Source: Rhizophagus irregularis
Lineage: Eukaryota; Glomeromycota; Glomeromycetes; Glomerales; Glomeraceae
DNA: 64,000 bases
NCBI RefSeq assembly: GCF_026210795.1
Contig: NC_089458.1
Coordinates: forward strand, 1,690,001-1,754,000
Reading direction: 5' to 3'
Made by a program: the position numbers and the translations under genes. A model generated the notes under the pieces. The model had not been told where the DNA came from, did no database searches, and worked only from the letters and a program-made list of their open reading frames with translations. Positions 1 through 48,535 of the stretch are shown piece after piece; position 1 is the stretch's first letter, and every line of letters begins with the position of its first letter.

Positions 1-2830
1 AATCAGGATTCTCAACTTGTTCTTTTAAACGTTAACTCATCTTTTTAATTGGTTTTTGATTCTTGTGTAAAATATTTATTCATTTAATTTTACTTTAAAA
101 GTAAAAAAGAATAAAAATTTTAAATTGATCAAGAATGTTTAGAAGCTCCCTATATATAATATATATGTACTACATATTTTTTAAACTTGATATTTTATAA
201 TGTTAAACCTTATAATTTAATTATTCTATAATAATTTCTTTATCAATAAGAAATCTTTTATGTTTCACATCATATTACTTTTTGAAAATTATTCATTCCA
301 ACATTCCGTATTTATTCTATTTTATAAATATATATGTGTTGTTGTATAACATTTACGTAAATATTCTTCTGATTTCCGACTTATCCCATTATATTATACA
401 TTGTATATTCTTTATTTTATTTTAATTTTATTCAAGTATAAATAATACAATTGAGAAAATAATAATTTTTTTTTTTTATATCACTTTCCATTTGAAAAAA
501 ATTCTTTGTTAAAAAGTTACGATACCCGCAGAATTTTGTTTGATAATCAATAAAGATAAATACTTTGATTTTATTGGTTCCTATTTACCTTACGTTGTTT
601 GTAAAAATTTGATCATCAATCTATTGTCCTCTAATACATTAAAATAATAATTTTTAGTTTTCCGATAATTGAGTTTTCCGTCAAGTTAAAAATTATCTAA
701 CGGCCAATAGAATTTATTAGGTATAATATATAAATATTACATTTATAGAGATTGTATTTTATAATATTTATATTATATAATATTTAGAATTTTTAATTTT
801 ATACCTAATTTCTATACCTAAAATATAAGATAATAATACTATTTATTATGATATACTTAAGTTTTATTCTATTTTATTACTTTTTTTTTTCAACGTTTTT
901 TACTATAACCTTTAATTGCAACTTATACATTTAAATAGTAAGTATAAATTGTAGGTAAATTTATCTGAAAATTCAATATTATTTATTAGAAATATTGGAA
1001 ATTAAAAATTATCTATTGGTTAGAAATTGCATTTAATTTAAATCAAATTACAAGATACAATTAGAAGGAAAAGAAGTCATTTTTGCAGTGAATTCAATAG
1101 TTATATAAGAATAAAGTAGTTATAAAAAGTGTGATTTTTCAATACTTTTTTGTTTTGAAAAATATAAAAAAATAGAAGCAACTTAATATTTATTATGAAA
1201 AAGGTTTTAATATAATTATAAAATTTAAAAAATTTTGTACTTTCATTTTAATGATCATTAGACTACTCTAATAAATAATTTCATTTAACATCAATTCTCC
1301 TTATTTTTGTTATTTTTGCCAAAAAATTGGATTTAAAACAATCACTTTATATTAAATATTATTGATTAATTAACTTTATTAATTATATAATTGGTTTACT
1401 ATATAATGTTGAATAAAACTATTTATTAGAGCAGTTTTAATTATAATTAAATAAAAAATATAATATTTATTATAAAGAACAATTTTTATTATTATAATTT
1501 TTAATATTACCATTTTTACTTTACAAATATATAAAATTTTTAAATAAAATACTTATCATTAACTTCAAAATTTTAAATACATAAAAATGAGAACCAATTT
1601 TTTAATATTATATTATCTTATAATATATTAAATATTAAAAATAAAGAAAACTCTTTTTGATTTCATTTATAACTATTTTTTTTATAAATAATAATTTTTT
1701 TTTTTATTTTTCTTTAAACCTCTTAATATAAACTTTTATTTTATTTTTTTATTGTATTTTCTAAAGGTATTAGTTATTTGATATTAAAAGTAATTATATA
1801 AATTTTTATTTTAAATTTTTATTTTTATTTTTTTTATACAATTTTTCTTATTCTTTAAACAGTAAGCAATTGCAAGTAAATTTGCCCACAATTTTACTGA
1901 AAATTCTACTCTCATCTAATTTTATAAAAAATAAAGTTAATAAAATTTTTTTTTCATAATAGCTTAAATCATATATTATGCAGCAAATATTATCATTTAT
2001 CAATTATATATTAGAAATTTGAAAATTATCCATTGGTCAAAAGTTGCATTTTCAACATAACTACAAAATTTAAAAAATTTTATACTTTAACTTTGGTGAT
2101 TTCATTAATAATTAGTTGCAGCTATATTAAAACTTAATAAAATATGTATAATTTATTATGAGGAACGCTTTTTATTATTATAGTTTTAAATATTTAGAAG
2201 TAAGATTTTGACTTTATATAATATTATATAAATTTAAAAAATAATTTTTTTTATCTTTATCTTATTTATTATAATGTAAAATTTCCATAAAAAAAATAAA
2301 AAGTATATTAAAATATTTCCAATAGTGGAAAAATATTGTGAGAAGAATTTAGATTTATTATATAAAAAATTAGATTCTATACTTTGCAAGTTAATTTTTC
2401 ATCTAATTTTAATGATTAGCTATATATTTGACTATACAAATTTATTGTCAAAATATAGGTCAATTTGGTTGTAAAATTATTGGATAATCTGATTTATATT
2501 AACAAACCTTATATTTAAATATAATTAATTTTTAGAAATTACAGGCAAATTTGTCCGCATTACTGTTAAGAGATACTTTATACAAATAATTTATATAATA
2601 ACTTATTACCAATAAAATCTGTAAAAAATTATAATATTAAAAGAACTTAAAATAATTTACCTTATTAAATATTAAATATAGTAAGTAAACTTTTTATTAA
2701 CAAAAGTTTTATTTAATTTATATAATAAAATTACCTTTATACTAATACATCTATTTTATATAATAAAGTGTAAATATAAATTAGTTCTACTATAATAACA
2801 TCTATATAAAATATATTTAAGAATATACAT
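1..2830. other. AT-rich intergenic DNA, no gene seen
   Basis: Very AT-rich sequence dominated by poly-T, poly-A and TTATAA runs. I see no frame of convincing coding composition, no tRNA-like box pair and no clear terminal inverted repeat. Short phrases recur (for example TTTGCCCACA- or TTTGTCCGCA-like stretches after GCAAGTAAA or GGCAAA near 1875 and 2545), suggesting very old repeats, but I cannot delimit them. Confidence 0.6.
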
Positions 2831-3330
2831 CTTTTTTTTTTTTCCGCAATGCATTTGATAGTTTATTATTAAACAGTAAAAAGAATCGGGACATACATAA
2901 AGTAATAACACCTAATCTAACTATCTAATATTATTAACTACCAAACCACTCATCATGCTATAAAGCACTCCATGTATGCACTGTTAGGTAAAATTTTTAC
3001 TCAGAAAGTATGGTTCATTTTGAAATAGCCATTCTTAGCATAAATGCCCCTCTTTCTTCACAAGGCATTCACAGGATCCACTACATTGCGAATAAAAAAA
3101 AAAGAAAAAAAGATTTGTAGTGTAAGTAAATAAAACTATAATGTAAGAAATCCATCCAGATCATTCCTCCTACAAGCATCCTGAAAAAATTGGAGAGGAG
3201 AGGCATCTACTATTCAAGCAGGATTCCAAACATCACATATATAATTCATAACTGCCTGATCTGCATGAATTTAAGTCTTTTTTGCTTCCTCGCTAAAATA
3301 ACCTAATTATACATGAAACTGAAATTCGAT
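2831..3330 (-). repeat. Degenerate dispersed-repeat remnant, possibly the end of a transposon
   Basis: This stretch is less AT-rich than its surroundings and reads better on the minus strand. A short minus-strand segment near 3150-3240 has coding-like composition but is broken by stops. It resembles the flank of a transposon-derived transcript, but no terminal repeat or domain is visible. The family is unassigned. Confidence 0.25.
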
Positions 3331-3426
3331 TAATTTTCGACCTCTAAAATTGCTTGAAATGGCAAAATGATTTTGACTTGCCCCTTCAAAAGTCAAAATA
3401 GTCGAAATTATGTCATAGTCATATGA

Positions 3427-3786
3427 TTTTATAGTAAACAATAATATTAAAATTCAAAGTTAACGAACTCCACATCCAATAATTCAATTTTTATGATCTT
3501 TACACAGTTGGATTCAGCTCATCGAGAGGATTCTATGTATTTCATATTTGTAGCATCAATATTAACAGAATTATTTACATTTAAAATTTGGTATTAAATA
3601 GTCTTATAATTTTTATAGTAAACAATAATTTTAAAATTCAAAGTTAACGATCTTTCATCCAGTGATTCAATTTTATGATCTTTACGCGGTTGGATTCAGC
3701 TCTTCCAATGATATGTATTTCATATCTGTAGCATCAATATTGACGGAGTTATTCACGTTTAAATTTTATATTAAATTATAATTATA
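3427..3786. repeat. Two tandem copies of a ~184-bp repeat
   Basis: The phrase TTTTATAGTAAACAATAAT starts at 3427 and again at about 3611. Both copies continue with AAAATTCAAAGTTAACGA, a GATCTTTAC / GGATTCAGCTC segment and a TAGCATCAATATT segment. The last segment (CATCAATATTGACGGAGTTA) resembles the opening of the 147-bp palindromic repeats near 8.0-8.4 kb and 36.6-37.0 kb, so this is probably a diverged member of that superfamily. Confidence 0.6.
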
Positions 3787-5232
3787 AAAATCGCATGATA
3801 TAATGTAATTTTGGCCACCATTTGCTTTAATTTTCGATTTTCTTTTGATTCCATCAAAGTTGAAATATTTCTACTTTTGGGCTTTAATTTTGACTTCATG
3901 TATAGACCTAATTTGCTAAAAATCAAATTATCCCATTTCAAATCTATACTAATTTGCTAAAACTCAAAATATGAGTTAATAATCTTTTTTTTTTATTATC
4001 AATAAAAAAATAAATGATTAATATAAATTAAACTGCCAATTTTTATAATTAAAATATGTAGATTATAGATAAAATAATAATTAATAAAAATAATAAATTA
4101 AATAAATAATTATTAAAAAATAAAATGTTCGTTAAACAAACGACAGTTTTTGGCTTGCATTATGCTTAATTTTGGCTGGAATTATACTTAATTTTGACCA
4201 AAATATAACCCAGACCCTGAAACTAATATTTTTAAAAATATTATTTATAAAGTTAAAAAAAAAGGATAAGTTAAATTTAAAAAAAGTCCCAATTTGCTCA
4301 AATATAAAATATGACTTTGTAAAATCAATACAATTTGCTAAAACTCATAATTATGACTATTAATTAATTTTCAATCAATTTGCTTTATCTAAAATTATGA
4401 GTTTAACCTAATTTTGATTGAATTTGCTAAAACTCAAATGTGAGTTATATATGTGATGTCTGGGGTCCTATCCAAGCCATAAGATCCAAGGTACGCATGA
4501 TAAGACCAGGACTGACCAGCTATAGCAAATGCAAAATATTCCCAATTTGTTATACCAACTGGGCCAAATGAAGCCATTTACCAATAGAAAGTAGTTTGTT
4601 GTAAGAAAGAGTAGACTTTAACATCAGATATCCACTGTCACAGCATAGATTCTTGAACACTGTTAGCTGCCATTTTAAATTTATCTCAGTCAACCATTCA
4701 AGGTAAGCTCTATCCAAATTTAAAGTATTTATATGAAAACTAACGCTAATACTAAATTTAAAAAAAATGCTAAATAATATTGATAAATAAATGAAAAAAA
4801 AGAAAAAAATAAAACTAAAGAAAAAATCTGGGCTCTATAATATCGATATTTGTCTTTATCCTTCTTCCTTTGAGGTGTATAGGTACAGTCAAAGATGAAG
4901 TCCAAAGTTTTTATCAAAGGTTGTTTAAAGAGAAACCAAAATCGGTCAGTTTCACAATATCAGAAAAAGGTTGGACTGAGCGTTATATTGAAAAAGCCGT
5001 TGAAATTCTATAAAAGGTTGTCTGTTCTGTAAGTTGTTCCAAAATGGAAGTTATCTTCTGAGTTATAAATTATTTGTTGTTATGCCGGCAAATTGCGGAA
5101 AGTATTCAGAAATGCATTTAGTTTATGACGTGATCTAATCCAAAATTCATTAGATGGTAGCTTAATCAGGAGTCTTATGACTTGTCGAATAGGAAATGCC
5201 AGCGGGTGTGAATAAATAACAGGCGTCGAAGA
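3787..5232. other. Unassigned AT-rich DNA with a candidate transposon end
   Basis: No gene is supported. The phrase AATTTGCTAAAACTCA recurs near 3907, 3952, 4336 and 4425. The segment TGAGTTATATATGTGATG followed by TCTGGGGTCCT, ending at about 4469, resembles the right terminus of the element at 34409-35447. It may be the end of a related, undelimited non-autonomous element. The 63-codon open frame at 4172-4363 has only background AT-rich composition. Confidence 0.4.
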
Positions 5233-5517
5233 AGAATCTGAACATTACTAAAACAACTCAGATTTCGTGTGACTAAAATTTCAAAATGCGATATTTCAGT
5301 CAATATTATACCTAAAAAGACGAATTACATATCAAAATGTTCGCATCGATGAGACGAATCTAACAAGCCAAAGATCATTAAAATCCAATCACTGGATCCC
5401 GAGATAGCAAAATTTGAGGCTAAAATCTACATATAACTTTATACATTTGGAATAGAAATTAATTATAAGGTTTATACAAATTCAGATCCGAGTTTTATTA
5501 GTAATGTTCGAGGTCCT
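5233..5517 (+). mobile_element. Non-autonomous hAT-like element, 285 bp
   Basis: The left end reads AGAATCTGAACATTAC. The right end, read inward on the minus strand, is AGGACCTCGAACATTAC, so the two form a short imperfect inverted repeat. A second copy of nearly the same length (287 bp) lies in inverse orientation at 35856-36142, and the alignment runs end to end. Inside is the palindrome GATTCGTCTC / GAGACGAATC around 5350. Flanking octamers are only partly alike, so a target duplication is not certain here. The hAT assignment rests on the clearer 8-bp duplication at the other copy. Confidence 0.65.
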
Positions 5518-6470
5518 ATTGAAGGAAGTGTAAAAGAAGGTAAAGGTATGTGTTGTTCATATCGTTCAAGTAGACTAGTTAAAGTTTTTCAGAGATAATC
5601 TTGTGTATAATGCTTAAGTTATTGTGAAGCTGTCTCGTGCTTTTTGATAGCCTGTTTGAGTATCTTGAAGAAGGAGGGCCCATTGGTATAGAGAAAGTTG
5701 TTGTGAAAAAATCCACTAAGTCTTTATTGTTTAGGAGTTCGTTGGTCACTCTTTTCATATCCAAGATTTCGTTATTCCGCTTAAAAGAAGAAGCTTAAAA
5801 CTATTCACATCCTGTCGTTATTCTAAGCTTGCTTATTTTGGATGATACGTCTCTCCAGACCGTCTTAAGTCCAGGAACACCACAAAGAAAGAGAAAACGT
5901 GTAAAAAATAAAAATAAAAAAGATAAAAAATTTTTAATACTAAAATAAACCACGTTAGGTTTTTTGCTGTCAAGTCTTTGCTTGAAGTATTTAAAATAAT
6001 AAAAAAGTGTATAAGCTATAAGCGAAAAATAAAAAAATAAAAAAATTTTATTATCAAAAACATATGGTCCAGACATTTAGTAAAAAGAGTTTTCCAAAAT
6101 ATACATCTTTAATAATATTTTAAATATATATTAAATTCTAATTAGCATGATTTAATTTCAATTTGAATTATACTGATACTAAACTGAATTTTTAGTATTG
6201 ATAATTGGTAATTTACTGAATTTTTGATATTAATAAACTGTAGTTAGTAATTACTGATTATTAATACTGATTTACTGAAATTTACTACTTCTTGATGTTT
6301 ATTATAAAAATTATATTAAAAAATAAAACTATATATATATATATATATATGATATATTACCATTTAATAACAAATCTATAAGTAAAACTCTTTCTAATGA
6401 TCATTATCAGTTATGTCTATTTTTTTCGCAGAAAAATAATTTTATTTTTTATCATTTTATAGCTTAAAAT
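5518..6470. other. Unassigned sequence with a TA microsatellite
   Basis: Two minus-strand open frames (5579-5764 and 5801-6076) are present. The second would encode a hydrophobic segment and a KTVWRDVSS-like tail, but neither has a recognisable domain, and the hydrophobicity is what AT-rich DNA gives by chance. An uninterrupted TA run lies at about 6330-6350. A pseudogene begins at 6471. Confidence 0.35.
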
Positions 6471-34408: not shown

Positions 34409-35447
34409 AGGATCCAAATAATACTAATATAACTCACAAATAATCGGCATGCATTTACTATTAATTCTACGCAACTTTTTTTTATAGTAACGCTACGCAA
34501 ATCCAAATCTTAGTTCAAAAAAATTTTTTATTACTAATATAATTCGTTTTACATTTTTTCTATTAAAATATTAATAAAATCATGCAAAAATCACCATTTT
34601 ATATTAAAATAGTGTGTTTCACACTTTTTTCTATTAAAATATTAATAAAATGGTGCGAAAATCACCATTTATTTATTAAAAATGGTGTATTTCGCACTTT
34701 TTCTATTAAAATATTAATAAAATCATGCAAAAATCACTATTTATTTGTTAAAAATGGTGTGTTTCCCACTTTTTCTATTAAAATATTAATAAAATCATGC
34801 AAAACCCTCCATTTATTTGTTAAAATAGTGCAGTTCACACTTTTTTATATTAAAATATTAATAAAATGGTGTGAAACTCTCTATTTATTTGTTAAAATGG
34901 TGTGTTTCGCACTTTTTTATATTAAAATATTAATAAAATGGTGCAAAACTTTCCATTTATTTGTTAAAATGTTGCGCTTCACACTTTTCCTATTAAAATA
35001 TTAATAAAATGCACTTTTTTATATTAAAATATTAATTAAATGATGTAAAATTCACCAATTATTTATTAAAATTGTGTATTTCGCACTTTTTTCTATTAAA
35101 ATGTTAATAAAATGGTGCAAAATTCACCATTTTTTGTTAAAGTAGTATTTTTTTCTATTAAAAAATATTAAAATAATGTGAAATGCATTACTTTTATTAC
35201 TATATATACAGTATAATTAATTACCAAAATCCGTAATATTGCAAATTTCAGAAATATATTATAAACCTATCCTTAATGGTATTGCACAACTTAATTTTTA
35301 TTATCAATATTATACGCAAATGTAATATGTGAGTTATCCCAAAATTAACCAATTTACGCAAACTCAATTTATGAGTTTAAACAAGTAATTTCAAATAAAC
35401 TCTACGTAAACCCATTTGTAAGTTATATCAGTATTATTCAGGGTCCT
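34409..35447. mobile_element. hAT-like non-autonomous element, 1039 bp, carrying a minisatellite
   Basis: The left end is AGGATCCAAATAATACTAAT. The right end, read inward, is AGGACCCTGAATAATACTGA; the match continues to about 33 bp. It is flanked by an 8-bp direct repeat AAACTGCC (34401-34408 and 35448-35455), typical of hAT elements. It has no transposase. The interior is mostly a ~72-bp tandem repeat. Related right ends lie near 4469 and about 35690. Confidence 0.85.
34545..35180. repeat. ~71-72-bp minisatellite, about eight or nine units
   Basis: Units begin CTATTAAAATATTAATAAAA at about 34560, 34631, 34703, 34775, 34846, 34918 and onwards. They continue with ATGGTGCAAAAATCACC and a GTGTGTTTCGCAC segment. 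Because most units are close to a multiple of three, a 140-codon frame stays open across them (34582-35004); I regard that as an artefact. Confidence 0.9.
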
Positions 35448-35722
35448 AAACTGCCAAAATCTTGCCAAAACTATAATAAAACTATAGTAAAATCTTGGAG
35501 AAACTAATCGTAAAATTTTGGAGAGGTTTAGGCAGGCAACCTTACATTAAACTTTATAAAATAAAAAAAATCTGCATAAATCGGATCATTGGATACTGAG
35601 ATAATCGCAAAAAACGAAAAATAAAAAAAGAGCAAATTGGGTCTTTTTTGGCAAAAAGTCAGTTGTGAGTTCTATAAGAGATATCTGGGATTCTCCTAAT
35701 ATTGTTCATTTTGTAAAATTTT

Positions 35723-35784
35723 CAAAGATAAAATACAAATAAAAGATAAAGTCATAAAACTGTTTGCACAGTAAAAGGATAAAT
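35723..35784 (+). mobile_element. 5'-truncated LINE 3' end
   Basis: AAATAAAAGATAAAGTCATA, then CTGTTTGCACAG and AAAAGGATAAA, matches the 3' end of the LINE at 44990-45046 almost base for base. This looks like a short 5'-truncated insertion of the same LINE family, and it supports GGATAAA as the element's 3' tail. Confidence 0.8.
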
Positions 35785-36253
35785 TATAAATGGTTCTTTT
35801 AATATAAGATTTTTCAAGATAGATGCGATACCGACTATGCATAGATTGCGATATTTAATTCCCGAATATTACTAAAAAAACTCAGATCTGAATTTGTATA
35901 AACCTTATAATTAATTTCTGCTCCAAATGTATAAAGTTATATGTAGATTTTAGACTCAAAATTTTCTATCTCGGGATCCAGTGATTAGATTTTAATGATC
36001 TTTGGCTTGTTAGATTCGTCTCAACGAGACGAACATTTTAATATATAAATCATCTTTTTAGGTATAATATTGACAGAGATATCGCATTTTGAAATTTTAG
36101 GTACACGGAATCTGGGTTGTTTTAGTAATATTCGGGATCCTATTGTGACTATATAGAATAGATTTTAATAATAAAGTGTTTTGAACATTTAACTGGTGTG
36201 ACTATATAGTAAAATGTGATTATAACAGGAGTGACTATAGAAAAAGTTGACTG
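35785..36253. mobile_element. Right part of a Tigger-type non-autonomous element, split by a hAT-like insert
   Basis: The sequence ends GTTGACTG followed by TA (36254-36255). With the 287-bp insert at 35856-36142 removed, it aligns closely to 47137-47316, including TTTTAATAATAAAGTGTTTT. Repeated GTGACTATA motifs lie near the end. No left terminus remains; its left edge coincides with the LINE 3' remnant. Confidence 0.75.
35856..36142 (-). mobile_element. Inverse copy of the 285-bp hAT-like element, 287 bp
   Basis: The ends are TAATTCCCGAATATTAC on the left and, read inward on the minus strand, AGGATCCCGAATATTAC. It aligns end to end with the reverse complement of 5233-5517. The right flank ATTGTGAC (36143-36150) matches the left flank ATTGCGAT (35845-35852) at six of eight positions. 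The uninterrupted relative near 47205 has ATTGTGAC once, so this is a target-site duplication with later mutations. Confidence 0.8.
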
Positions 36254-36599
36254 TAGTTTTAAAATTTTTAATAAATAAATAACAATTTTAAACCTTTTAA
36301 TAATATATAAAAAATGAAGAAAAATTTAGGATTCCAAATAATATATAAATAAGTAATAGTAAAATTTGCTTAATTATTATATAAAATTTTTTATAAACCA
36401 TCTATTATTTTGCTTAATAAAAAGTAGAATTTTAAAGTAATCATATTTATATTATACCTTTTAAAATTAATGATATACAGTCAACTCTCTTTATAGTCAC
36501 ACATTTGATATTTGGTGATTATAAAGAGATGTGACTATATAAAAAATTTCTTATATTTGTATATCATAATTCCGGCCAAAAATTAACATAATTTTAGCC

Positions 36600-37030
36600 A
36601 GAATTATACTTAAAACTTTATTGTATCGTAACTTCGCCAATATTAATCGTAGAGAGATGATCTTACCGCCATTCGATTCGTCTTGATGAGACGGTTCTAA
36701 TGGTATAAAATACGTCGAAATCCAATCACTAGATTAATTTCCGAAATTAAAAAAATATTAATGGTTTTTGTGTAATAACTCTGCCAATATTGATCCTAGA
36801 AAGACGATCTTACTACCATTCGATTCGTCTTGATGAGACGAATCTAATGGTATAAAATACATCGAAATCCAATCACTAGATCAATTTCCGAAATTAAAAA
36901 ATATTAAATGGTTTTTAAGTAATAACTCCGTTAATATTGATCACAGAGAGATGAGCTTACCACCATTCGATTCGTCTCGATGAGGCGATTCCAACGAGCT
37001 ATAAATCGTCTTTTTACAATCACTAGGTAC
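36600..37030. repeat. Palindromic ~147-bp tandem repeats, about 2.8 units
   Basis: GCCAATATT starts at about 36636 and 36783, and the related GTTAATATT at 36930. Each unit contains CTTACTACCATTCGATTCG, the palindrome around TCTTGATGAGA, and AATCCAATCACTAGAT. It is the same family as 7980-8410. It forms the left interior of the outer Tigger-type element; a further half-unit follows at 47036-47110. Confidence 0.85.
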
Positions 37031-37291
37031 CGAGAAATCTAGCAAAATGTTAAATGGCGCAGTAAACGTAAATCAAGAAATATTATAATGCCGATGTTTA
37101 ACATTTTGTTGAATAACTCGTCAGCCAGTGATCGGAAAAGGATAAAACTAAAAACTAAAAAAAAAACTAAACTCTCTCCCGTTCTGCTCACTTGACAATA
37201 TTTACGAAAAAATAAAAAATTTTTTCGGAGTTTTTTATTACTTTTTCTTTATAATTTCTTTATTTTAGATAACTACTACGACACTTTACAA

Positions 37292-39347
37292 ATGGGTAAA
37301 GATAACAAAAAGAAAAATAACCAGTCTAACAAAGATACTACATCTAAACGTCCTGCCTCTAGCTCTCCAACTGGCAACATTTCTGGTCAAGGTTCCTCTA
37401 TGTCTGGCCCTTCGAACACTCCACCTTCGACCACCTCTACTAATAAATGTACCAGAGTCAGTGCTGAAGACTCTGTCATGGATGTTGATAAACCTCTCAC
37501 GCCTCCTGGCCCTGTTGAGACAACTTCCGCTGAGATACCTTCTCAACCCGATACCTCCTCTCTCGCTTCGCAACACGCCCCAGCTAACAACAACGATAAA
37601 GGCAAAAGCCCTGAAATTACTCCCGCAGTCTCCTTCCCTGAACGTGCTGCCTCTCCGGACACGTCCCAAGCTGCAGTACAATCTCAACCTACACTTTTCT
37701 ACGCCTCGGCCGCTCCTAATGACGTTGATGGCTTTTGGAATCACTTCGCTTCGAACTGCGACGCGTGCGACGCGGTTGATTGACAACTTTCCTTGTTCTC
37801 CTCTTATGGTAGTCGTGCCACGTGTAGTGGATCCAACGATTTGAAGAGGATCATCGTCCACTTCCGAAAAAAGGAAGATCTTGACAACGCCACAGCCTCC
37901 CCTATGGATTCTTTGTTTGGCTTGCATTTCCATGCATATGACACCCCCAGGCTATTGGCTGATCGACGAACACGCAGTATGTGGTTACCGATATCCCCCT
38001 TTTTCTTACTGACGCTCTTTTGCGTGGTACCTTTTCTCGTTACGGCAATATTATTCGTTGCCATACCCGTTTATCTAAACTTTATCGTACTGCATACATT
38101 ACCTTTCAATCTACTGGGCGCTTTACGTAACTCGACTCTTACCTCCCCGGGGCGTCCTTTGTGGAGACATTGTTTGCGTATCTGCCCCACTACTTTCTCA
38201 CCCTGAACAACGTGCCGAAAGACGCGCTTATGTTGCTTTACTTGCCGGTCTCCCGCGTGGCACTATAGCGGTCCGATCTTGCTGAAATTGCCAATGAAAT
38301 TTCCGCTAAATCTATCAACGTTCCCTTCTCTACGAATTCTTACAATCCCAAACCTTACGCCTATTGCCATTTTGCCTCTGAAACGGCTATGGAAAATGCT
38401 AAATCTATTTCATGTGCACCTCCAAGAAAGTTGGCCTTACCTGGCATTATTCTCCGGATGAAGTCACTATAACTTTGTCATCGATGTGTGGTCGCGCAAT
38501 TGTAAGCCTGATCGAGCGGTTCTTCATCTAGACCTAGCAATCTCCCCTTATTCGCCCTTGGCAATCTAACGATAAATTACATGCTTTATATAATAAAGCA
38601 TCTACCTCCTTCCTTCATCCTGCTAAACGGACAGCAACCGTTTTGCCCGCCCTGATAACAATAATGATGGACAAAAGCGTCACAAATGCTTTTCGCCATA
38701 GTTACGAAGTCCAGGCACCAATAACCGACCAAACAATCTCGTTCTCGTTCTCAACATCGACCATGGAATCGCGACAATCGTTAATAACAACAATAATAGC
38801 CAAGCGTCGCCATGTATTCCGATGGCAATGAAGCTTGATTACTATATTGATGGCGTGGATGTTACAAAATAACCCCCATAACAACCTATACTGCGCTTAC
38901 TGATTGGAAATCTATTGGTGCTGCTCTTGAAAAAGTAGTTGAAGAATTAGCCCTTCTTACACACAATTTGCTATGAACAGCCGCATCACTAATTTGGAAT
39001 CTGCTATGGCTGCTCGTACTCCTATTCCAGGACCTTTTGTCGCTAAACCTCCTTCCTACATCCCTTCCCTCTCATGCAAGGATGGGATGATACAGTGAAT
39101 CGAACTGATAATAATATCCTCGTTGATGTTAATTCTCCCCTTTGCAATCAACAAGTGGTTTTTTCCCGATTCCTCATTTTGCTCCCATTCCACCTTCCAA
39201 CGTCGCTCCTTCCTCCCCTATTGATATGGAACAGCGTCTCTCCTCTCTTTCCGATACTGTTGCCTCTTTGGCTGGATCTCGATTAAAGAAGGAATCCAAC
39301 AAAACAACCTCATCTTAGCTCGGCAACAAGGCCAAGCTAATCAATAA
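37292..39347 (+). pseudogene. LINE ORF1 (RRM-like RNA-binding protein), frameshifted
   Basis: Starts MGKDNKKKN at 37292. The first 150 residues are Ser/Pro/Thr-rich and disordered-looking, with a short Lys-rich start. After a shift near 37785, an RRM-like segment is read in pieces: TDIPLFLTDALLRG, TFSRYGNIIRCHTRL, YRTAYITFQ at about 37995-38115. A second segment INVPFSTNSYNPKPYAYCHF lies near 38310-38380, followed by LCHRCGR (about 38475), a zinc-knuckle-like motif. The C-terminus has a short predicted coiled coil (MEQRLSSLSDTVASLAG) and ends about 39347. Its likely role was binding the LINE RNA. At least four frame changes are needed. Confidence 0.8.
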
Positions 39348-39436
39348 TTGTTCTCTTTTCCCCTTCTTTATTACCGATTCATCAGTGTGTAATAATGATG
39401 GACAACAATAAACATAATTTTTCCCCCTCACCCCTC

Positions 39437-42400
39437 TCCCCTTATTAAATTTGGTCAATTAAATGTTAATGGTTTATGTTCCCCAGTTCGACAACAACAT
39501 TTACTTAATTTTTTTCTCCACTCCTCTTTTGGTGCTTTATCTATTAATGATACGCGTCTTTCCCCTTCAAATGCAAAATTTATCTTCAAAAACGAACACT
39601 CCCAACATCACTTTAAATCCTATTGGGCTTGTTCATCTTCTTTTCGCCCTCATGATGGTGTTGGTATTTTGTTACGAAATCCCCTTCATAAACATGTTCA
39701 AACAATTGATCCTTCGGAACGGTCGACTTCTTAAATTAGACTTGTTCTTTCATCAAACTAAAATTTCTATTATTTCTATATATTATCCCCCTTCTGGTTC
39801 TGTTCATCAATCTATTTGCAATGATCTTATTGCCAAACTTCTTTCTTGGCTCGATTATGCCCGAGCTAATAATTATTTTGTAGTTATTCTTGGCGACTTC
39901 AATGCTGATGTAATCGCTCATTCTAATTATTCACCTAATCATTTTAAGCTTCTTCACTTGCTTTCTTCTCGGTTTTTTACCGATCATCAAGCTCACTCCT
40001 CTACAAATGGTCCTGATCCCACTTTTTTTCATGATAATGGATCTTCAAGACTGGATTATATTTGGTCTTCACCTGGTTTTCCTGCCCCTGGTCTTTTTTC
40101 GCAAGTGGTTACTTGCCCGGATCTCCTTGATCGTCCTTTTACAGATCACAAAGTTCTTTCAACTGTTTTTGACTTCAGTTCTTGCCTGGCTATTTTGGCT
40201 AAATCTCGTCTTAAACAAAAACAAGAATTGCGTACTATTTTCTCTTACGCTTCCACTTCAGTTGAACAATGGAATAATTTTACCACTGAAGTAGATGATT
40301 CTCTTGGAGTTTATTTAGATAGACAATATCACCCCAATTTTGATTTCTCCTCTCTTTCTCTTGATCGTATGTGGCATGCATTGAAAGCTGCCATAATTAG
40401 TGCTGCTATTGAAACTTTACCCTTTCAAAAAGTCTCTAACACACACCGACATTCGTACTCTCCTGAATTAACTAAACTTATTGCTATTAACAAGTTTTTA
40501 GATCGATTCTTATATCGGCTTACTACTCGTCGTTCTAATTGGCTTACTCAGATTGCGCAAATGACTGCCGCTTTGCCCTCCCATCTTGAAAATCTTGCAT
40601 CCTTACTCCCTGATTACTCAGTTCCTACCTATTCTACAACCCCTGTATCTGTATTTAAATCGTTTTTACGATCACAGAAGAATTTAGTTTCTGCCTTTTT
40701 ATCTACTAAATTCGCCCAACACCTTACGGACTCAGTGGAATATTATACTGCACTACGTGATGAACACTTTTCGACCTCGCTCGGCACCTTTATCGATTCT
40801 GCCTTATCAGTAGAAAAACGTTCAATTGTTCTTGACCGTGTTCTGGTCGTTTTGGACTCAACTCCTACTTTATTAACGGATCCTTCGGATATTAAACATG
40901 CGGCTGTTTCTCATTTTCAATCAATTGTTTCTCCTCCGTTGGTCCACTATTCTTCCATCGCTTCATTTCCCGCCCGATGGCAACAAGCTTACACTCCTCT
41001 TACAAATGTGTCTGCTTCATTATACGATCCTGTTTTGGCGCCTATTTCCCTACAAGAATGGTCTACTGCGATTTCCTCCATGCCAAATAATAAAGCTTCC
41101 GGCCCTTCAAAAATTTCTTACGAGATGATTAAACACTTGTCCCGGTGAAGCCTTGGATTTTTCTCTTTTACTTGCCAATACTTGCCTTTCTCGTGGTGAT
41201 ATTCCTGCTGACTGGTGTGAAGCCGTGATTTATCCTATTCCTAAACCTCATGACTTTGATGCTCAACTTAAGAACACTCGACCTATTACCCTTCTGGAAA
41301 CAGTTCGAAAATGTGTAGTTAAGGTCGTCACGAATCGTCTTTCCAACATCCTTGCTGATAATAAAATTCTTCAAGGTGGTAATTTTGCTGGTTTACCTGG
41401 TGGTTCTACTGATGTCCCTATCAAAATGCTGGATGCGATTATTCATCAACGTAAACACGACTCTACTGATGATCAGGAACTATGGATCGTTTCTCAAGAT
41501 ATCTCTAAAGCTTTTGATTCTATGGATTTAAATATGCTTAAATTAGCTTTAGATAGGTTACATATCCCTGCACTTTTAGTGCGATTTATTTTAAATCTTT
41601 TTACACGACGAAATAATAAGATAATTACATGTCATGGCGATACAGCTGCTTATAGAGTACGTGTTGGTATCGATCAAGGAGAAATTATTTCCCCTCTTCT
41701 TTGGGTTATTTATTTGGATCCCTTACTCACTGTTTTGAATCAAGAAGCACGCGATCCTTTTATTTTAAAATCTTCAGCTCTTTTAAATTACTCTCCACTT
41801 GAATTTGAACAACATTCTTTACCAATTTCACATTTAACGTTTATGGATGATTCTACACTTATTGCTTCTTCAAAATCTGGAATAGAAGACCGTCTTTCTA
41901 TTACTGCTGAATTTTATACTTTAAATAATGTTCAAGCTAATTCAGCTAAATATGTTCTTCTTTCATCTTCTTCCCCTTCTTCAAAGATTATTTTTGATCT
42001 TACACCTTCTTTTTTAGTCTCTGATTTGTCTCTTTCCCTTTCCTCTTTATCTTTGCATGCTTCCTTTTGCTTTTTAGGCGTTTGGTTTTCTTTATCCGCC
42101 TCTTCTGATTTTGTTCTCAAACAAGCGCGTTCCATGGTTAAAGATATGGCAGCTCTCCTGGGACTGAAGAAATTATTAGCACAACATGTGGCCTATCTCT
42201 ATAATGCTGTCCTTCTTCCGCGATTGGAATTTCGTCTTCAAACTACCCTTTTCTCTGAAAGTACTATTCAATCAATTGTCAAGCCCCTGTTTTCAGTACT
42301 TCGAAGAAAAGCTGGTCTTGCTACGACTACTCCGTTACCCTTGTTATTTCTCAAACTTCCCTTTTCGATTCAAAATGCTTTCTATCGCTTTCTTTCTTCC

Positions 42401-44781
42401 CATATGGCCTCTTGGCAAAAAATTTTTACTCATCCTGATTTCAAAGATTTTGCTCTTTATGCTATCTCCTATCTTCAAGGATATTTGGGTGCTGAAAGTT
42501 GCCCGACTACTATTAACTTAGAACCATGGTCGCAGATCGTTTCTTTGCGAACGCACACTTTGTTTAATTCGTTATTGTTTTCTTCGCGTTTGAACATCAC
42601 GTGGTCTCTTTCCTTCCAGCCTCCGAGGCATGATCTACAACCTGCTCTGCCACTCCGATCTATTCTACCTCATTCCATTTTTCAATCGAGTTGGAAACTT
42701 TGGAAAAACCTGAATATATTTGCGCTTGCTCAGCTGGTTTCTCCTTGTGACGTTATCTTATGAATTGGCCCGACTTCGTTATCTTGGCATCGTTGGTCGT
42801 AAAGGACGGATCCCTAATTGGTTTACTTTTATCAATAATAATTTTCTCTTCTTCTTCTTCTACTTTACTTTTATCTTCATACTTTATTAATTCTTCTTTT
42901 ACTTTAGCTTCTCCTTGTTTATTAGATCATACTGTTAAAGATTATTCTTTTTATCCTCAATGGGCTATTACTCTTGACTCTGCTACTCAAACTTTATCTG
43001 TTGGTCGTGTGTATATCACTTATAAGAAACAAAACTCGGCTATTATGTCTCATTGGCTTCCTGTATCTACCTCGGCTGATGAACGATCCTATGACCCTTG
43101 TCCCGGTTGTGCTCTTAACATTCCCGCCTTATCCATGAAATCTGCCATCAGACAACGCTGTAATAGCGAGAAATGCTTTTTTAATGTAACTCTATCGGAT
43201 ACTGTGGGCTATCCTACCAGAAATGCCAAAGTTTTCGCGGTTTATCTTCCCATTACTCTATCTACTTCATGGAGTTATGCGACTTCCTTGGCTCTTGTTC
43301 ATTTTTCGAACGCGTCTCCCGCTCTTTCTCCTCTCTTTAAGGATAGAATCGATAGAATTGAAGACACTATTTTACCACTTTCGGTGCAATCTCTGTACAC
43401 AGATGGTTCGTTCCATCCTGCCAATGATTCTTCGCCTTCTTCCATGACTTCTGCTTGGATTGCTCTTGATGATGTTGGACTTGTTCTGGAATCTTCTTCC
43501 ATGCATCTCCCTTCTTACTTTCCTTCCGCTTTGCGTTCCAAAATTTCTGCTGTTCTATTAGGATTGAACGCCCTTTCCCGTGACTCGTCAATCTCTATTC
43601 ATACTGATTGTAGTTAGTTAATTTCACTATGGACACGGTTTGTTGATGCTCCTTTCTCACCGAAGTTGCTCCGAGAACCTAATCATCTTCTTTGGCTTTC
43701 TATTCGACAACTTATCATGGATCGTAATCTTAATGTCGATTTGATTAAAGTCCCTGCCCATGGCGATGACATCTACAATATACAAGCGGATTCTTTGGCA
43801 AAAGCTGCTCATTCGTCTTTACAACCCAATATTCCACTTTCAACATTTTCGTCATGCTCCACGCTTGTCGACTTTTAACTCCTCGCCTATTCGACGTGAA
43901 TATTCGACATTTTCTCCGCTCTATTGCAGTACGTCGCGCTCTTTTTATCTTTTTGTTCACTAGCGCGTTTTACTGCTCTTGGTTCTCCTTCACTTTTTGA
44001 TTGGGCTGGTATATATTTTGCCTTTCACAAATTAAAGGTTTCGTTTCACATAAGAATGGTCGTCCTGAATTTTGGATCTTCCGTATTAAACTTCTTTTGG
44101 ATATGTTGCCTACCTTAACTACTCTTCAACAACGTAAACCTTACTTATATTCTCCCCGACTGGCTCGTCCGCAGTGTAATTCTCGCTCCTGAAGATTTGA
44201 ATCATCTTTGGACTTGTCCTTATATTTTACCGGATTTAAATCCCTGTTTAACACACCGGTCTCGAAGTCATTAAATTTAGAGATTCTTGTTTATCTTCTT
44301 TCCTATCCTTGAAATCTTTGGATAATTCCTTTCATACCAAGTTCTTTGCTTTGGATTGCTGGAACTATGAAGCTCCTTCTTCATCCTGTCTTTGGCTTAC
44401 TCGAGGATTGTTGCCTGCGCATTTAACGGCATTTTTGAATCAATACTTTCCTCTCTCTGTTATATACAAGATTATTTCTCCCCTTCTTAATGACTTTCAA
44501 GTCGAATTATAGTGAAATTTGGCTGTGTCGGAATGTTCTTTTCCATGCTTCGGGAGGAGTCGCAGGGTATCTCGGCTGCTTCCAAATTACGTGGCCCATC
44601 TACAAATTCTCTCCCTAATACTACTTCTCCACAACAACACAACTCTTCTTTGGCGTCAGTTTCTCAGGATTCCTGGATTTCTTGGATATCCTCTTCTATA
44701 ATTCGGGGTGGATCTTGGATCTCGCACTTGGATTTTCTGCGCCGCTTAACAGTTCAACCTCTTAGGATTTCTTTCTGGTAA
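39437..44781 (+). pseudogene. LINE ORF2 (endonuclease, reverse transcriptase, RNase H), frameshifted
   Basis: The endonuclease begins near 39441 (IKFGQLNVNGL). After a shift near 39722 it shows YYPPSG, GDFNAD (39890), SRLDYIWSS (40045) and DHKVL (40145). The RT segment has AFDSMD (41510), GIDQGEIISPLLWVIYLDPL (about 41670) and FMDD (41840), where most relatives have FADD. RNase H has LYTDGSF (43393) and KVPAHGDDIYNIQADSLAKA (43748). A Cys/His segment DLNHLWTCPYI follows near 44195. Frameshifts lie near 39722, 41148 (one base) and 42758; a TAG stop is at 43616, and more breaks follow after 43880. It cannot make a full product. Confidence 0.9.
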
Positions 44782-45047
44782 CAGACTGGATTTTTGGATG
44801 TTGGATAGTTGACTCACACTGGCCTTCGGGTAAAGTTGGGGTATGCGATTCTGTAATAGTTCAGTTTTTTTTTGCTTTAATTTTATTTTAGTTTAGATTT
44901 CTTTACTTGTATGAGTCGTGAAGCTACTCTTTTTATTTTTTATTAGTTTATTTTCTTATTTTTGTAATATTGTTCGATTACTTTTCGAAGTCAAAGTATA
45001 AATAAAAGATAAAGTCATAAGACTGTTTGCACAGGAAATGGATAAAA

Positions 45048-46038
45048 CTAGGGTTGGTCACCCTATCTTGGCCAAGAGCACCTGAGACCAATCATTAAGT
45101 TCTCAGATTAATGAGTCGTTGCGTTCGATTCCCACGACCTTACAGAAATAAAAAGTTAATTTTACTGCGGACGCTACAACCAATAGCGCGAAGGTGACAG
45201 GGACAGTGTAGCTTGGACTGCATCATGGTGAATTAGTGTGTACGGTTAGGCGCGCATTTCGTTAGGGTAAAGTGCGTATTCGGCCAACGTTACCCTATGA
45301 GGCCATTGGCATGTGCGCAGTCTGCTCGCGGGGTCGCTCTTATCATTGGCGAGGGGGACTTCCTGTCGGGTGGTCGCTCTGCGATACCGCTTGGGGTCAT
45401 AATGGCTAGATGGTCGTCACCAGATGGTAAAGCTGAGGGTGCGAATGTGTCAGTGGTAGTTAGACCTTCTGTTAGGTCTGACCAACCAAGCGTGTTCGTG
45501 CGCAGAACAGGTAGCATGGCTGATGGGGTTCGATTCCCTACTTGGCCTCCCTGGTTCATGATCCCTGCAGTGATACCTCACCATGAGGCAAGGTGATCCC
45601 TGGACAGATGCTGCATCTCGTCTGAGTTGGTCACTATAAAGTATACCACTTGGGGTAAACAACTGTACTATCGGTGCTAGGTAATCGCGGGCTGTAGTGG
45701 CGCTTTGAATGAGGCTACCATAAAATGGTGGTATGGAAGGAATACTTAGATGGTTGATGTTACCTGTCGAAAGTCCTCCATGAAAGTAGATCTTCTCTAA
45801 AGGTCGTTAAATAAATTGAGTATCAGTATCGTACAATGGGTATAGGATGAGTAGGCGGCGTGTACTGAATCAGATCGGCCTAAAAAATGGCCCGATGGGG
45901 ATGTCTTCTATAGTGGTGCTGTTACCTGAGGAATTAAAAGTACTCGGTATAATGGTTGCCCATTGAAGACGATAGGACACAGACCCGAGATTAGTCTCAT
46001 AAGAGGCAATGGGTGGTCTGGCCGTAAACACTGCAAAG
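45048..46038 (+). repeat. tRNA-derived composite unit, copy 1 (991 bp)
   Basis: Begins after GGATAAAA with CTAGGGTTGGTCACCC. A class-II-like tRNA head follows: GGCCAAGAGCACCTGAGAC, then the B-box-like GCGTTCGATTCCC at 45121. A second tRNA-like block at about 45450-45545 has GTGTCAGTGGTAGTTAGACC and GGGGTTCGATTCCC. No protein-coding frame is credible; antisense frames over the B boxes are artefacts. It is either a composite SINE or a LINE-associated non-coding unit. It is flanked by copies of GGAAA-GGATAAAA. Confidence 0.7.
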
Positions 46039-46052
46039 GGAAAAGGATAAAA

Positions 46053-47019
46053 CTACCAGGGTGGTCACCCTATCTCGAGCGGTTAGTGACTGAGACCCTC
46101 ATTGCCCCCGAGACAAGGTGGCGTCGTTGCGTTCGATTCCTTACACCACAGAAATAAAAAGAATTTTACTGCGACGCTACAACCAATAGCGTGAAGGTAC
46201 GGAGTTGACAAATGAATTACTGCATCGTGAATTAGTGCGTGTGCCAGGCCGACATTTCAACATCAAGCAAGGTGCGGTGTTCTTAACGTTCTATGTTACG
46301 GATGATGCAAGTCATTCTTGTTTTTGAGGTACTACTATACCTCGTGGGGGGACTCGTCTGGGTGGTCACTCCACGATACCACTTGGGGTGGGGCCAGTAA
46401 TGGCTAGATGGTCGTCCTAGATGGTAAAGCTGAGGGTGGCAATGTCTTAGTGGTAGTTAGACTTGTTAGATGCTTGATACCAGTATTCGTGCGCGGAACA
46501 GGTAGTATGGTTATGGGGTTCGATTACCCCTTCTTGTCCCCAAGGTTGGTGATCCCTGGTGGTTGATACCCACTATAAGGGGTGATCTATGGACAGAACC
46601 TGCTATTCGTTCCAAAGTGGTCGCTACTAAGTATACCACTTGGGGTAAACAACTGTACTATCGGTGCTAGGTAATCGCGGGCTGTAGTGGCCTTTGGTAG
46701 ACGCCAAATGCCTAAAATGGTGGTATGGAAGGGTGCTTAGATGGTTGATGTTACCTGTCAAAAGTCCTCCATGAAAGTAGGTCTTCTCTAAAGGTCGTAA
46801 AATAAATTGAGTACCAGTATCATACAATGGATTAAGGATGAGTAGGCGGCGTGTACGCTTCAGGATCGGCTAAAATGGCTCGATGGGGGATGTCTTACAT
46901 GGTGCTGCTGTTACGAGGAATTAAGTTCGGTTTAATGGTTGCCTATTGAAGATGATAGGACGCAGCACCGAGATTAGTCATAAGAGGCAATGGGTGGTCT
47001 GGCCGTAAACAATAGCAAA
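46053..47019 (+). repeat. tRNA-derived composite unit, copy 2 (967 bp)
   Basis: Aligns along its whole length with copy 1 with many small indels. The A-box-like TCTCGAGCGGTTAGTGACTG is better kept here than in copy 1, followed by GCGTTCGATTCC at about 46130. The second block has ATGGGGTTCGATTACCCC near 46515, with an extra base in the B box. It ends at the 14-bp repeat GGAAAAGGATAAAA (47020-47033). Confidence 0.7.
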
Positions 47020-47316
47020 GGAAAAGGATAAAAGCTACCACCATTCGATTCGTCTCAGTGAGACGATTCTAACAAGCTATGGTACATCTTTGTACGATTA
47101 TTAGATGCCAAGTTATTTAATATATTCTTTATATAACTGCGATTATAAACGGTTCTTTTTAATATAAGATTTTTGAGGATAGGTGTGATAGTGACTATAG
47201 ATAGATTGTGACTATATAGGATAGATTTTAATAATAAAGTGTTTTGAACATTCAACTGGTATGACTATATAGTAGAATGTGACTATAACGGGAGTGACTA
47301 TAGAGGGAGTTGACTG

Positions 47317-48535
47317 TATAAATATTTTTTTTAGTATTGTAATTTTTAAATATTTTAAAATAAAGTTTAACAGTAATTAAAATTGAAAAAAAAATATTTT
47401 TTTTTTATTTATAGATGATGAATTGGCAAAGTATATTCTACAATAAAATAAAAATATATATTTTTGTATTTTTGTTATATAAGAAATATAAATTTTATAA
47501 TATTTTAAAATAATGTAAAATTTCAAATATTAAGCTAAAAATAAAATGTAAAATTTCAAATATTCAAGCTAAAAATAAAATGTAAAATTTTTATATCATA
47601 AAACTATTTTATATTAACTAAATATTTAGTATTTTATATATAAATTAATAAATTTTTCTAACTATTACTGGTAGTGATGAGTGATGACTGAAATTATAAT
47701 GATCAACTAGTATTAAAAAAATATAGTGCTGGTAAAAATTGATAATTTTGGCCAATAGTAATGATAATCCCCAGTAATTTGAAGTAAAAATCTTTTACAT
47801 ATATAAGAATTTTTAAAATTCTTTATTTAATTTATTGAAAATTTTAATACTTGTTTTTTATTTTTTATTTTTATATGTATGGCTTATAATTATTAAAAAA
47901 AATTCTTTCTTAATTATATCATATAGTATTTGTTTTAAAAGATATTAGAAATTATATAAAAAGTTAACTGTAACATTTTTTCCTTTTTTTAAGTCTTCTA
48001 AATCTTTATAGAATTTTTCTTTAACTTTTTATATCATTGAAATAAATAAAGTCATAATTAATTTATTAATAATTTTAAACTATTAATAAGTTTATATATA
48101 TAATTGTCTTTTTTTAACTGTATAGCTGAAATTTTTGTTGTAATTACCATGGAATTTATATTTGTCAAGATGACAAAATTATGAAAAAAAAAAACAATAA
48201 ATTAACTATCATAATAAAAAAAATTCTCTGCCAAAAAAAAAAAAATTTTTATTAAGAAAGCAAATCAAAAAAAAGCTACCATTAAGAAACTCAAACCTCT
48301 ATTAACTTGTAGATTGAGTTACACGATTTTGAAAAAAAAATTCCCACAGTTTAATGATCACATGCAGAGATTTTAATTACGTTCCTTTATATGGGTTAGT
48401 TAGTGTTAGTTAGGGCATGTGACAAATCAGTAGTTCATATAAATACCAATATTTTCATTTACCCTTTTTTATCATTTTTCATTTTTCAAGTTCGTCTCTC
48501 TGAAAATATAATAAGTAATGAAAATAATGAAAAAT
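47317..48535. other. AT-rich intergenic DNA, boundary of the gene-rich part
   Basis: No gene is seen between the last transposon end and the tetraspanin start. The phrase AATGTAAAATTTCAAATATT-AAGCTAAAAATAAA is duplicated locally at about 47513-47590. The last ~150 bp before 48536 presumably contains the tetraspanin promoter; I see no definite TATA or operator. Confidence 0.5.

Follow-up and report, generated by a model that had tools for sequence, protein, structure and literature searches.

Some long interspersed nuclear elements (LINEs) insert at a specific target, as R1 and R2 do in ribosomal DNA (rDNA), and Tx1L of Xenopus, a LINE with an apurinic/apyrimidinic endonuclease-like (APE-type) enzyme, was reportedly found by Christensen et al. 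in 2000 at a fixed site of the DNA transposon Tx1D. Short interspersed nuclear elements (SINEs) can form stringent-type pairs with LINEs, such as UnaL2/UnaSINE1 of eel. As far as the accessible portions of two papers go, some LINEs are known in principle to have other transposable elements as their targets (PMC4640811, PMC8869645); one of them names transposons among LINE targets and describes two LINE families, Keno and Utopia, at the U2 small nuclear RNA (snRNA) genes, a multicopy target (PMC4640811). In Magnaporthe oryzae, a target-specific LINE and its non-autonomous partner, MoTeR1 and MoTeR2, are described at telomeres in the available part of the source (PMC7367193). For Rhizophagus irregularis, a curated library of transposable elements lists SINE and LINE groups including L1-Tx1, L1-R1 and I in the text at hand (PMC11075540). 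Here we analysed a stretch of 64,000 nucleotides of the R. irregularis genome (the window, C30:1690001-1754000) together with genome-wide searches over 146.7 Mb in 32 contigs. We propose, with a probability of roughly 90%, that two target-specific LINE-SINE pairs (LINE-A with SINE-A, and LINE-B with SINE-B) are parasites of one DNA transposon, each pair at its own site, and that their insertions re-create the site and build arrays.

The arrangement resembles Tx1L/Tx1D in that an APE-type LINE sits at one set position in a DNA transposon. It differs in having two LINE families whose two sites lie on opposite strands of the same terminal inverted repeat (TIR) element, matched SINEs, arrays and a C-terminal RNase H. 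Unlike the targets of Keno/Utopia and R1/R2, the target here is a transposable element, and there are SINE partners. Head-to-tail mixed arrays parted by target sequence, with 5ʹ truncations, are a likeness to MoTeR, so far as the part of that paper available describes it, whereas the target there is a telomere repeat and here a DNA transposon site, and SINEs occur here that have no LINE ends (PMC7367193). The titles and opening lines of abstracts listed by searches of openly licensed papers described no target-specific SINEs, no DNA transposon with two LINEs at two sites and no such system as a whole, nor any fixed-site SINEs with partner LINEs that differ in their targets.

The original prediction, made from the window sequence, had placed near-identical junctions before, between and after a LINE and two ~1-kb units, and these were present at all four places, as GGAAAAGGATAAAA at 37134, 46039 and 47020 and as GGAAATGGATAAAA at 45034. 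The 8-mer GGATAAAA alone was not enriched in the window (9 matches vs 8.07 expected), and the junction 14-mer had 540 copies genome-wide vs 10 for the reversed control. The junction is target DNA and not the tail of the LINE; GGAAAAGGATAAAAC(T) equals positions 668–684 of a 965-bp TIR/TA element, hereafter TE. In the window, TE is split into a left part (TE 1–684, 36476..37150, plus strand, 97% identical to the copy in locus L177, with the TIR TACAGTCAACTCTC), which includes the left site A, and a right part (TE 668–965, 47020..47318, plus strand, 98%), which starts with the right site A. Hence 17 bp of TE stand on both sides of the array, which indicates a target duplication. TE is interrupted by the 7.9-kb APE-type LINE-A (37150..45033) and two ~1-kb SINE-like units (unit 1, 45048..46037; unit 2, 46053..47019), all on the plus strand and each with the site duplicated: GGAAAAGGATAAAACT, TE 668–684, left of LINE-A (37134..37149), a copy with one substitution, GGAAATGG, at the border of LINE-A and unit 1 (45034..45048), and a copy at the border of units 1 and 2 (46039..46053).

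The ends of TE read TACAGTCAACTC... and ...GAGTTGACTGTA and adjoin TA, as in a TIR DNA transposon with a TA target, of the kind of Tc1/mariner-like miniature elements (MITEs). Among four fetched empty copies, both ends were read in L177 only, which holds the intact 965-bp TE between TA ends from end to end; L176 and L178 gave one end each, and L175 held another insert. Unoccupied site A, sought as contiguous left and right flanks with at most three mismatches over 34 bases, was found at 240 places genome-wide (reversed control, 0), and site A with its right flank, with at most three mismatches over 25 bases, at 572. From these two counts, up to 58% of the right halves have been parted from a recognisable left half, a very rough upper bound to which divergence contributes too. 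The 14-mer sites in L188 and L189, which match none of the elements, are probably chance occurrences.

To characterise LINE-A borders, 3ʹ ends were collected with a query from the 3ʹ untranslated region (UTR) that did not include the junction. The best 40 of 340 first-look candidates were scored, giving 41 places, of which 40 downstream flanks were fetched; the 41st was a truncated neighbour inside L003. The query falls in ~440 nt that are common with a ~3.16-kb element described below, so that some of the 40 ends may belong to that element; a LINE 5ʹ end 7.8–8.1 kb away was found for 16 of them. The best 40 of 103 candidates for 5ʹ ends gave 40 places. The 5ʹ flanks were the TE left half in 35 cases, a SINE in 3, a LINE in 1 and an inverted TE site in 1, and the 3ʹ flanks a SINE in 20, the TE right half in 17, a LINE in 2 (one truncated, the other nearly from its 5ʹ end) and the inverted TE site in 1. 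Nothing but TE, SINE and LINE was met in the 80 sampled flanks. The terminus TGTTTGCACA, or a near form, was followed by [G/A][G/T/C]AAAAGGATAAAAC(T) or a variant, and, as the original prediction had anticipated, no LINE 3ʹ end in the sample of 40 lacked the junction or a variant of it; the one in L002 lay at an imperfect inverted version. Thus, the best-scored LINE-A copies occupied one fixed site, in one orientation, of a multicopy target that also has empty copies, which is the behaviour of a target-specific LINE. L063 and L002 (the two ends of one copy) and L137 were at a TE sequence that is paralogous to site A, though inverted and imperfect, GTAAAAAGA[C/T]GATT....

Next, the target variants at the two ends of individual copies were compared. 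Both ends were read in 16 copies, and dropping the inverted-site pair left 15 ordinary pairs; L065/L037 and L079/L024, with ends ~11 kb apart, were left out, since they probably bound a LINE together with another element, as L118 shows for L079/L024. Identical 15-mers stood at both ends in 14 of the 15 pairs, and the odd pair was the window copy, with one substitution. By permutation, the mean number of matching pairs was 5.2 and the highest 11, and none of 100,000 permutations reached 14. The informative variants included GTAAAAGAATAAACC, GGAAAAGATTAAAAC, ATAAAAGAATAAAAC and ATAAAAGGATAAAAC, six non-consensus variants were paired across the ends, and the duplications measured about 15–20 bp. 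These data bear on the original idea that GGATAAAA is a 3ʹ tail repeat which the LINE RNA carries and which serves again as a target. In the samples, LINE-A and SINE-A 3ʹ ends were indeed all followed by GGATAAAA sequence or a variant, but the variants were common to the two flanks of one copy and not to the family, empty sites carried the sequence without any LINE, and LINE-B, with nearly the same 3ʹ end, was followed by a different sequence, so that a tail repeat is extremely improbable.

The 5ʹ borders showed how far the LINE insertions were independent of one another. Before CTCTCTCCC, the filler comprised 32 distinct strings in 39 LINE copies; the shortest, CTAA, was common to five copies, and three further strings occurred twice each. 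With 32 distinct fillers, the insertions were mostly separate events rather than one spreading composite of TE and LINE. A composite of this kind, in which one LINE inserted in an ancestral TE that then spread with its passenger and the fixed site was kept by descent, would account for copies at one site in one TE, for TE halves that are mostly 93–99% alike and for the recurrent fillers. It is nevertheless very improbable, as it is opposed not only by the filler diversity but also by the pairwise matching of six non-consensus target variants, the differing truncations and array orders, the many empty TE copies and the insertions at SINE and LINE borders besides TE. Copies with 5ʹ truncation were seen for both LINE and SINE.

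The fillers at the LINE-A 5ʹ borders (L041–L080) were A-rich, of (CTAAAA)n type, with an extra target-like AAAAGGATAAAAC in 8–10 of 39. A second match to AAAAGGATAAAA with at most two substitutions lay in the filler stretch of 10 of 39 copies; of these ten, L044 and L050 were merely A-rich, and the other eight were plain by eye. It is possible that such fillers record template jumping or slippage in the last phase of reverse transcription; template jumps are discussed as a proposed step of LINE integration in the accessible part of one paper (PMC6895275).

LINE-A in the window is full length with broken frames and is 95% identical to the LINE-A in L171. An A-rich 5ʹ filler (37150–37170) precedes its first element base near 37171, and the 3ʹ terminus TGTTTGCACA ends at 45033. 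An ORF1 (open reading frame 1) fragment at 37292..37783 had no Pfam match. The APE-type endonuclease part of ORF2 (39463..41148) matched PF03372 (E=3.5e-09) and PF14529 (E=1e-06), and the reverse transcriptase (RT) part (41153..42763) matched PF00078 (E=6.8e-17) and, by phmmer, R2 and L1 ORF2p in PDB. The RNase H region (42760..43617) had no Pfam match at E≤0.001 in its short frame; RNase_H PF00075 was present in the unbroken LINE-A frame of L171. The label LINE in the original prediction was therefore borne out, by the APE-type endonuclease and the RT that the window copy encodes and by RNase H in the unbroken frame of another. PF00078 and PF03372/PF14529 lay in one frame of 1795 amino acids (aa) in L171 and 1951 aa in L172, with RNase_H C-terminal. 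RT and endonuclease in one ORF, target duplication and 5ʹ truncation place LINE-A with the APE-type non-LTR (non-long-terminal-repeat) elements. Long ORF2 frames without breaks, and APE-type endonuclease, RT and RNase H, were present in both LINE-A and LINE-B. APE-type endonucleases usually carry E in a QE motif; in four of four aligned endonuclease copies (L170–L173) the motif NDTRL had Asp at the position of the usual catalytic Glu. An AlphaFold model of the endonuclease had a mean pLDDT of 32.7 and was of no use.

The second pair came from an RT search, which gave 20 LINEs at 74–76% identity to the LINE-A RT (LINE-B). A 3ʹ-end pattern search showed that LINE-B 3ʹ ends read TTTGCTCA, the last ~25 nt being mostly as in LINE-A, with a different sequence following. 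TAATCACCAAATA(T) or a near variant stood after 29 of 29 fetched LINE-B 3ʹ ends (15 from the 3ʹ-end pattern and 14 located from RT positions), with deviations that comprised a substitution in L119 and L164 and an extra stretch before the site in L128. Beyond this site B came TE in 10 cases, a SINE in 13, seven of them recognised only by the head common to SINE-A and SINE-B, and LINE-B in 6. In upstream fetches, the 5ʹ border was at site B in 9 of 10 (TE 6, LINE-B 2, SINE 1); the fetch for L144 missed the LINE-B border. Site B is TE 42–58 on the opposite strand (L151/L155), and was empty at 389 places genome-wide (reversed control, 0). LINE-B ORF1 carries RRM_1. When one copy of each was compared, the LINE-A and LINE-B proteins were 57–77% identical per 100 residues over the first 600 (endonuclease and linker), 71–89% across the RT (601–900), 68–74% over the next 200 and 39–64% towards the C-terminus. 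LINE-B copies directly adjoining head to tail at site B were observed in L142 and L148 (RT matches C12:2290330 and C12:2298347). In L175, eight bases resembling the LINE-B 5ʹ end adjoined site B and site A was empty, an arrangement which indicates that the two TE sites can be filled independently.

For SINE-A, the 3ʹ half of unit 1 was used as query, and the best 40 of 459 candidates were scored, giving 49 places; all 37 loci beyond the window were fetched (L081–L117). The units stood head to tail, and their neighbours were TE halves, LINE 3ʹ ends, LINE 5ʹ ends or truncated LINEs, other units and the 3.16-kb element. The strict site pattern was matched in 32 of the 37 loci, and the other five had variants or gaps of the right size. 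The unit might have occurred mainly without the junction, which would have told against the original prediction; no unit outside such arrays was seen in the 37 loci, with two neighbours unassigned, to the right in L081 (only 86 nt, which resemble the 5ʹ portion of the 3.16-kb element) and to the left in L115 (61 nt, too short). Every insertion leaves a copy of the site at both of its borders, so that a further element can enter at either of them; this yields head-to-tail arrays such as that in the window.

Tandem duplication, or unequal crossing-over between copies of the site, might instead have been the main source of the arrays. The site copies should be good recombination substrates, and in L095 two neighbouring SINE-A fragments were both truncated at position 679. 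However, adjacent units were not especially alike. Full SINE-A units were mostly a few percent apart (42 unique full units), the five adjacent full-SINE pairs, a small sample, were 85–97.5% alike with a mean of 0.919 vs 0.943 for the 856 other pairs, and the nearest relative was the array neighbour in 1 of 10 cases. Truncations differed within arrays, and LINE, SINE and 3.16-kb element came in mixed orders. We therefore regard this origin as unlikely for most arrays and favour serial insertion. Of the two options in the original prediction, reuse of the sequence as a target was thus upheld, in the form of serial insertion and not of a LINE 3ʹ tail repeat; transposition of the units as one array was not supported, given the few neighbours that were nearest relatives, the differing truncations and the diversity of LINE fillers.

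The description of the units as tRNA-derived held in part. Of 36 full units, 29 had an exact Pol III B box, GGTTCGANTCC, close to the 5ʹ end and 26 had one internally; when one unit was shuffled by mononucleotides 20,000 times, 8 of the shuffled sequences contained an exact B box at any position. No tRNA was detected by Rfam or ARAGORN: Rfam gave no match at E≤1 in the window at 44900–47100, five matches in seven loci at E≤5, none of them a tRNA, and none at the gathering threshold at 36400–47400, and ARAGORN found no tRNA in the window and 11 loci. We therefore call the ~1-kb unit SINE-A with reservation, given the B boxes and the silence of the covariance and tRNA models. Neither window unit had a frame of at least 150 aa, and the shared site and duplication suggest that the SINEs may move in dependence on the LINEs.

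Both window units are divergent, unit 1 at 87% (for its head, the best other scored copy was 84%) and unit 2 at 82%. The units were thus 82–87% like the main SINE family, and the surrounding TE and LINE were 95–98% alike. Their differences lay in patches between perfectly conserved blocks, for example around AGTATACCACTTGGGGTAAACAACTG, which suggests subfamily recombination or RNA-structure constraint.

A third kind of insert at site A was an element of ~3.16 kb on the minus strand (L118 ~1–2990; L184 ~3227–6390; L185 ~1850–5014), with its first ~100 nt LINE-A-like (82%), its last ~440 nt from LINE-A and a foreign middle. The middle has its own frame, open elsewhere up to 826 aa, and residues ~300–476 of the protein were mostly 33–40% like those of a large protein family that is dispersed in the genome; the protein gave no Pfam family above the cut-off and no PDB match. 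LINE-like ends with a foreign middle recall MoTeR2, as portrayed in the section of the source available.

SINE-A and SINE-B have their first ~460 nt in common and differ in their 3ʹ tails of ~250 nt. When one copy of each was compared (SINE-A of L089 and SINE-B of L155), the two SINEs were 88–100% identical per 50-column window over the first ~500 columns, 65–92% over the next ~250 and 35–48% (one window 70%) in the last ~250–300. Tail and site were then compared for 174 unique 3ʹ ends from all loci. SINE-A tails were at site A in 72 of 72 cases and SINE-B tails at site B in 8 of 8, the SINE-A sample being selected mostly by tail and the SINE-B sample by site (loci found beside LINE-B). Among the 94 LINE ends, classed by tail motif, 56 A ends lay at site A and 32 B ends at site B; 2 stood at the inverted site, and 4 were discordant. 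Of the 20 LINE ends with at least 150 nt of body in the locus, 14 A bodies were at A, 5 B bodies at B and 1 was discordant.

The agreement of tail and site makes it somewhat probable that the ~250-nt SINE 3ʹ tail is an address tag, with one body and exchangeable tails, the tail alone picking the LINE and the TE site. If so, the result would be a three-level parasite system of a DNA transposon, two LINEs, and SINEs with the protein-coding 3.16-kb passenger, and would amount to a natural tail-swap experiment. In stringent-type pairs the SINE 3ʹ tail is thought to recruit the partner LINE, according to the accessible text of one source (PMC3747384). In the known pairs, tail sequence is common to LINE and SINE, whereas here none was convincing and the evidence is the shared fixed site. 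HaSE1 and HaSE2 of Helicoverpa have in common a tRNA-related 5ʹ part and a central domain, with 3ʹ parts of different origin, as the available portion of the paper states (PMC3272025). The common 5ʹ part with different 3ʹ parts is a likeness to that portrayal, and the difference is that in these SINEs each kind of 3ʹ part is associated with its own fixed place in the genome, site A or site B.

The shared 3ʹ sequence for which the original prediction had proposed to check LINE and unit was not borne out: over the last 60 nt, the best LINE/SINE match of pair A was 8 nt, with 28 of 500 shuffles as good, the match of pair B was not beyond chance, and no LINE-derived tail was recognised on the SINEs by this comparison. 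A common stable 3ʹ fold was also unconvincing in the tails folded, with small hairpins at the ends of the SINE tails (z −1.7, −0.3) and z −0.5 and −0.3 for the LINE tails.

A mechanism can be proposed for these insertions. In target-primed reverse transcription of an RNA that ends in TGTTTGCACA, the APE-like endonuclease would nick the bottom strand between GATC and GG, and the freed 3ʹ end would act as the primer. The cDNA end would then join the upstream side, often with A-rich or target-like filler. SINE-A and the ~3.16-kb element would be inserted in trans by the LINE-A machinery, and SINE-B by the LINE-B machinery; the SINE 3ʹ tail would decide which of the two is used.

Several points weigh against two site-specific pairs in this simple form. 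L002/L063 and L137 are at a paralogous imperfect site, so specificity is not absolute. By tail motif alone, 4 of 94 LINE ends (L027, L038, L179 and L156) disagree with their site; two are LINE-A by 3ʹ UTR, one is LINE-A by body and L156 is LINE-B by RT, evidence that settles all four in favour of the site. For 88 LINE ends (not de-duplicated) the sequence was too short for the body test, and for most LINE-B ends the tail was the sole basis of the class; the discordant case in that test was a 33-nt fragment in L151 at site B, slightly better matched to A. The SINE-B sample was conditioned on the site, and members of one array are not independent. The shared breakpoint in L095 makes it likely that local tandem duplication also contributes to arrays. 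Without a convincing shared 3ʹ sequence, recognition of the SINE tail by the LINE is suggested by site sharing only, and the whole case comes from one assembly, in which no activity was observed.

Close to the array in the window, the truncated LINE 3ʹ end reported near 35723 was confirmed as a 65-nt fragment from 35719, followed by the site-A-like GTAAAAGGATAAA (35719..35785, plus strand) and then by sequence like the TE right half. The region 35210–35790 was considered as a second LINE-tailed family and rejected: the 40 best of 1449 candidates matched elsewhere in the stretch, and no match but the region itself ran through the LINE tail. Further upstream, 34550–35207 is a tandem array of a 72-bp repeat, with eight overlapping copies in register.

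LINE and SINE insertions at exact spots of a TE provide a natural test of landing-site choice. A single genome with hundreds of sites, some filled and others empty, would allow direct tests of which features of a SINE RNA a LINE protein recognises, which features of the protein determine the target and how the 5ʹ end joins. The copies in L002/L063 and L137 form a natural off-target series from which the recognised bases could be defined. Finally, the two sister enzymes, whose RTs are ~75% identical, have distinct defined sites and short RNA clients, and may offer a good start for site-specific RNA-templated insertion tools.

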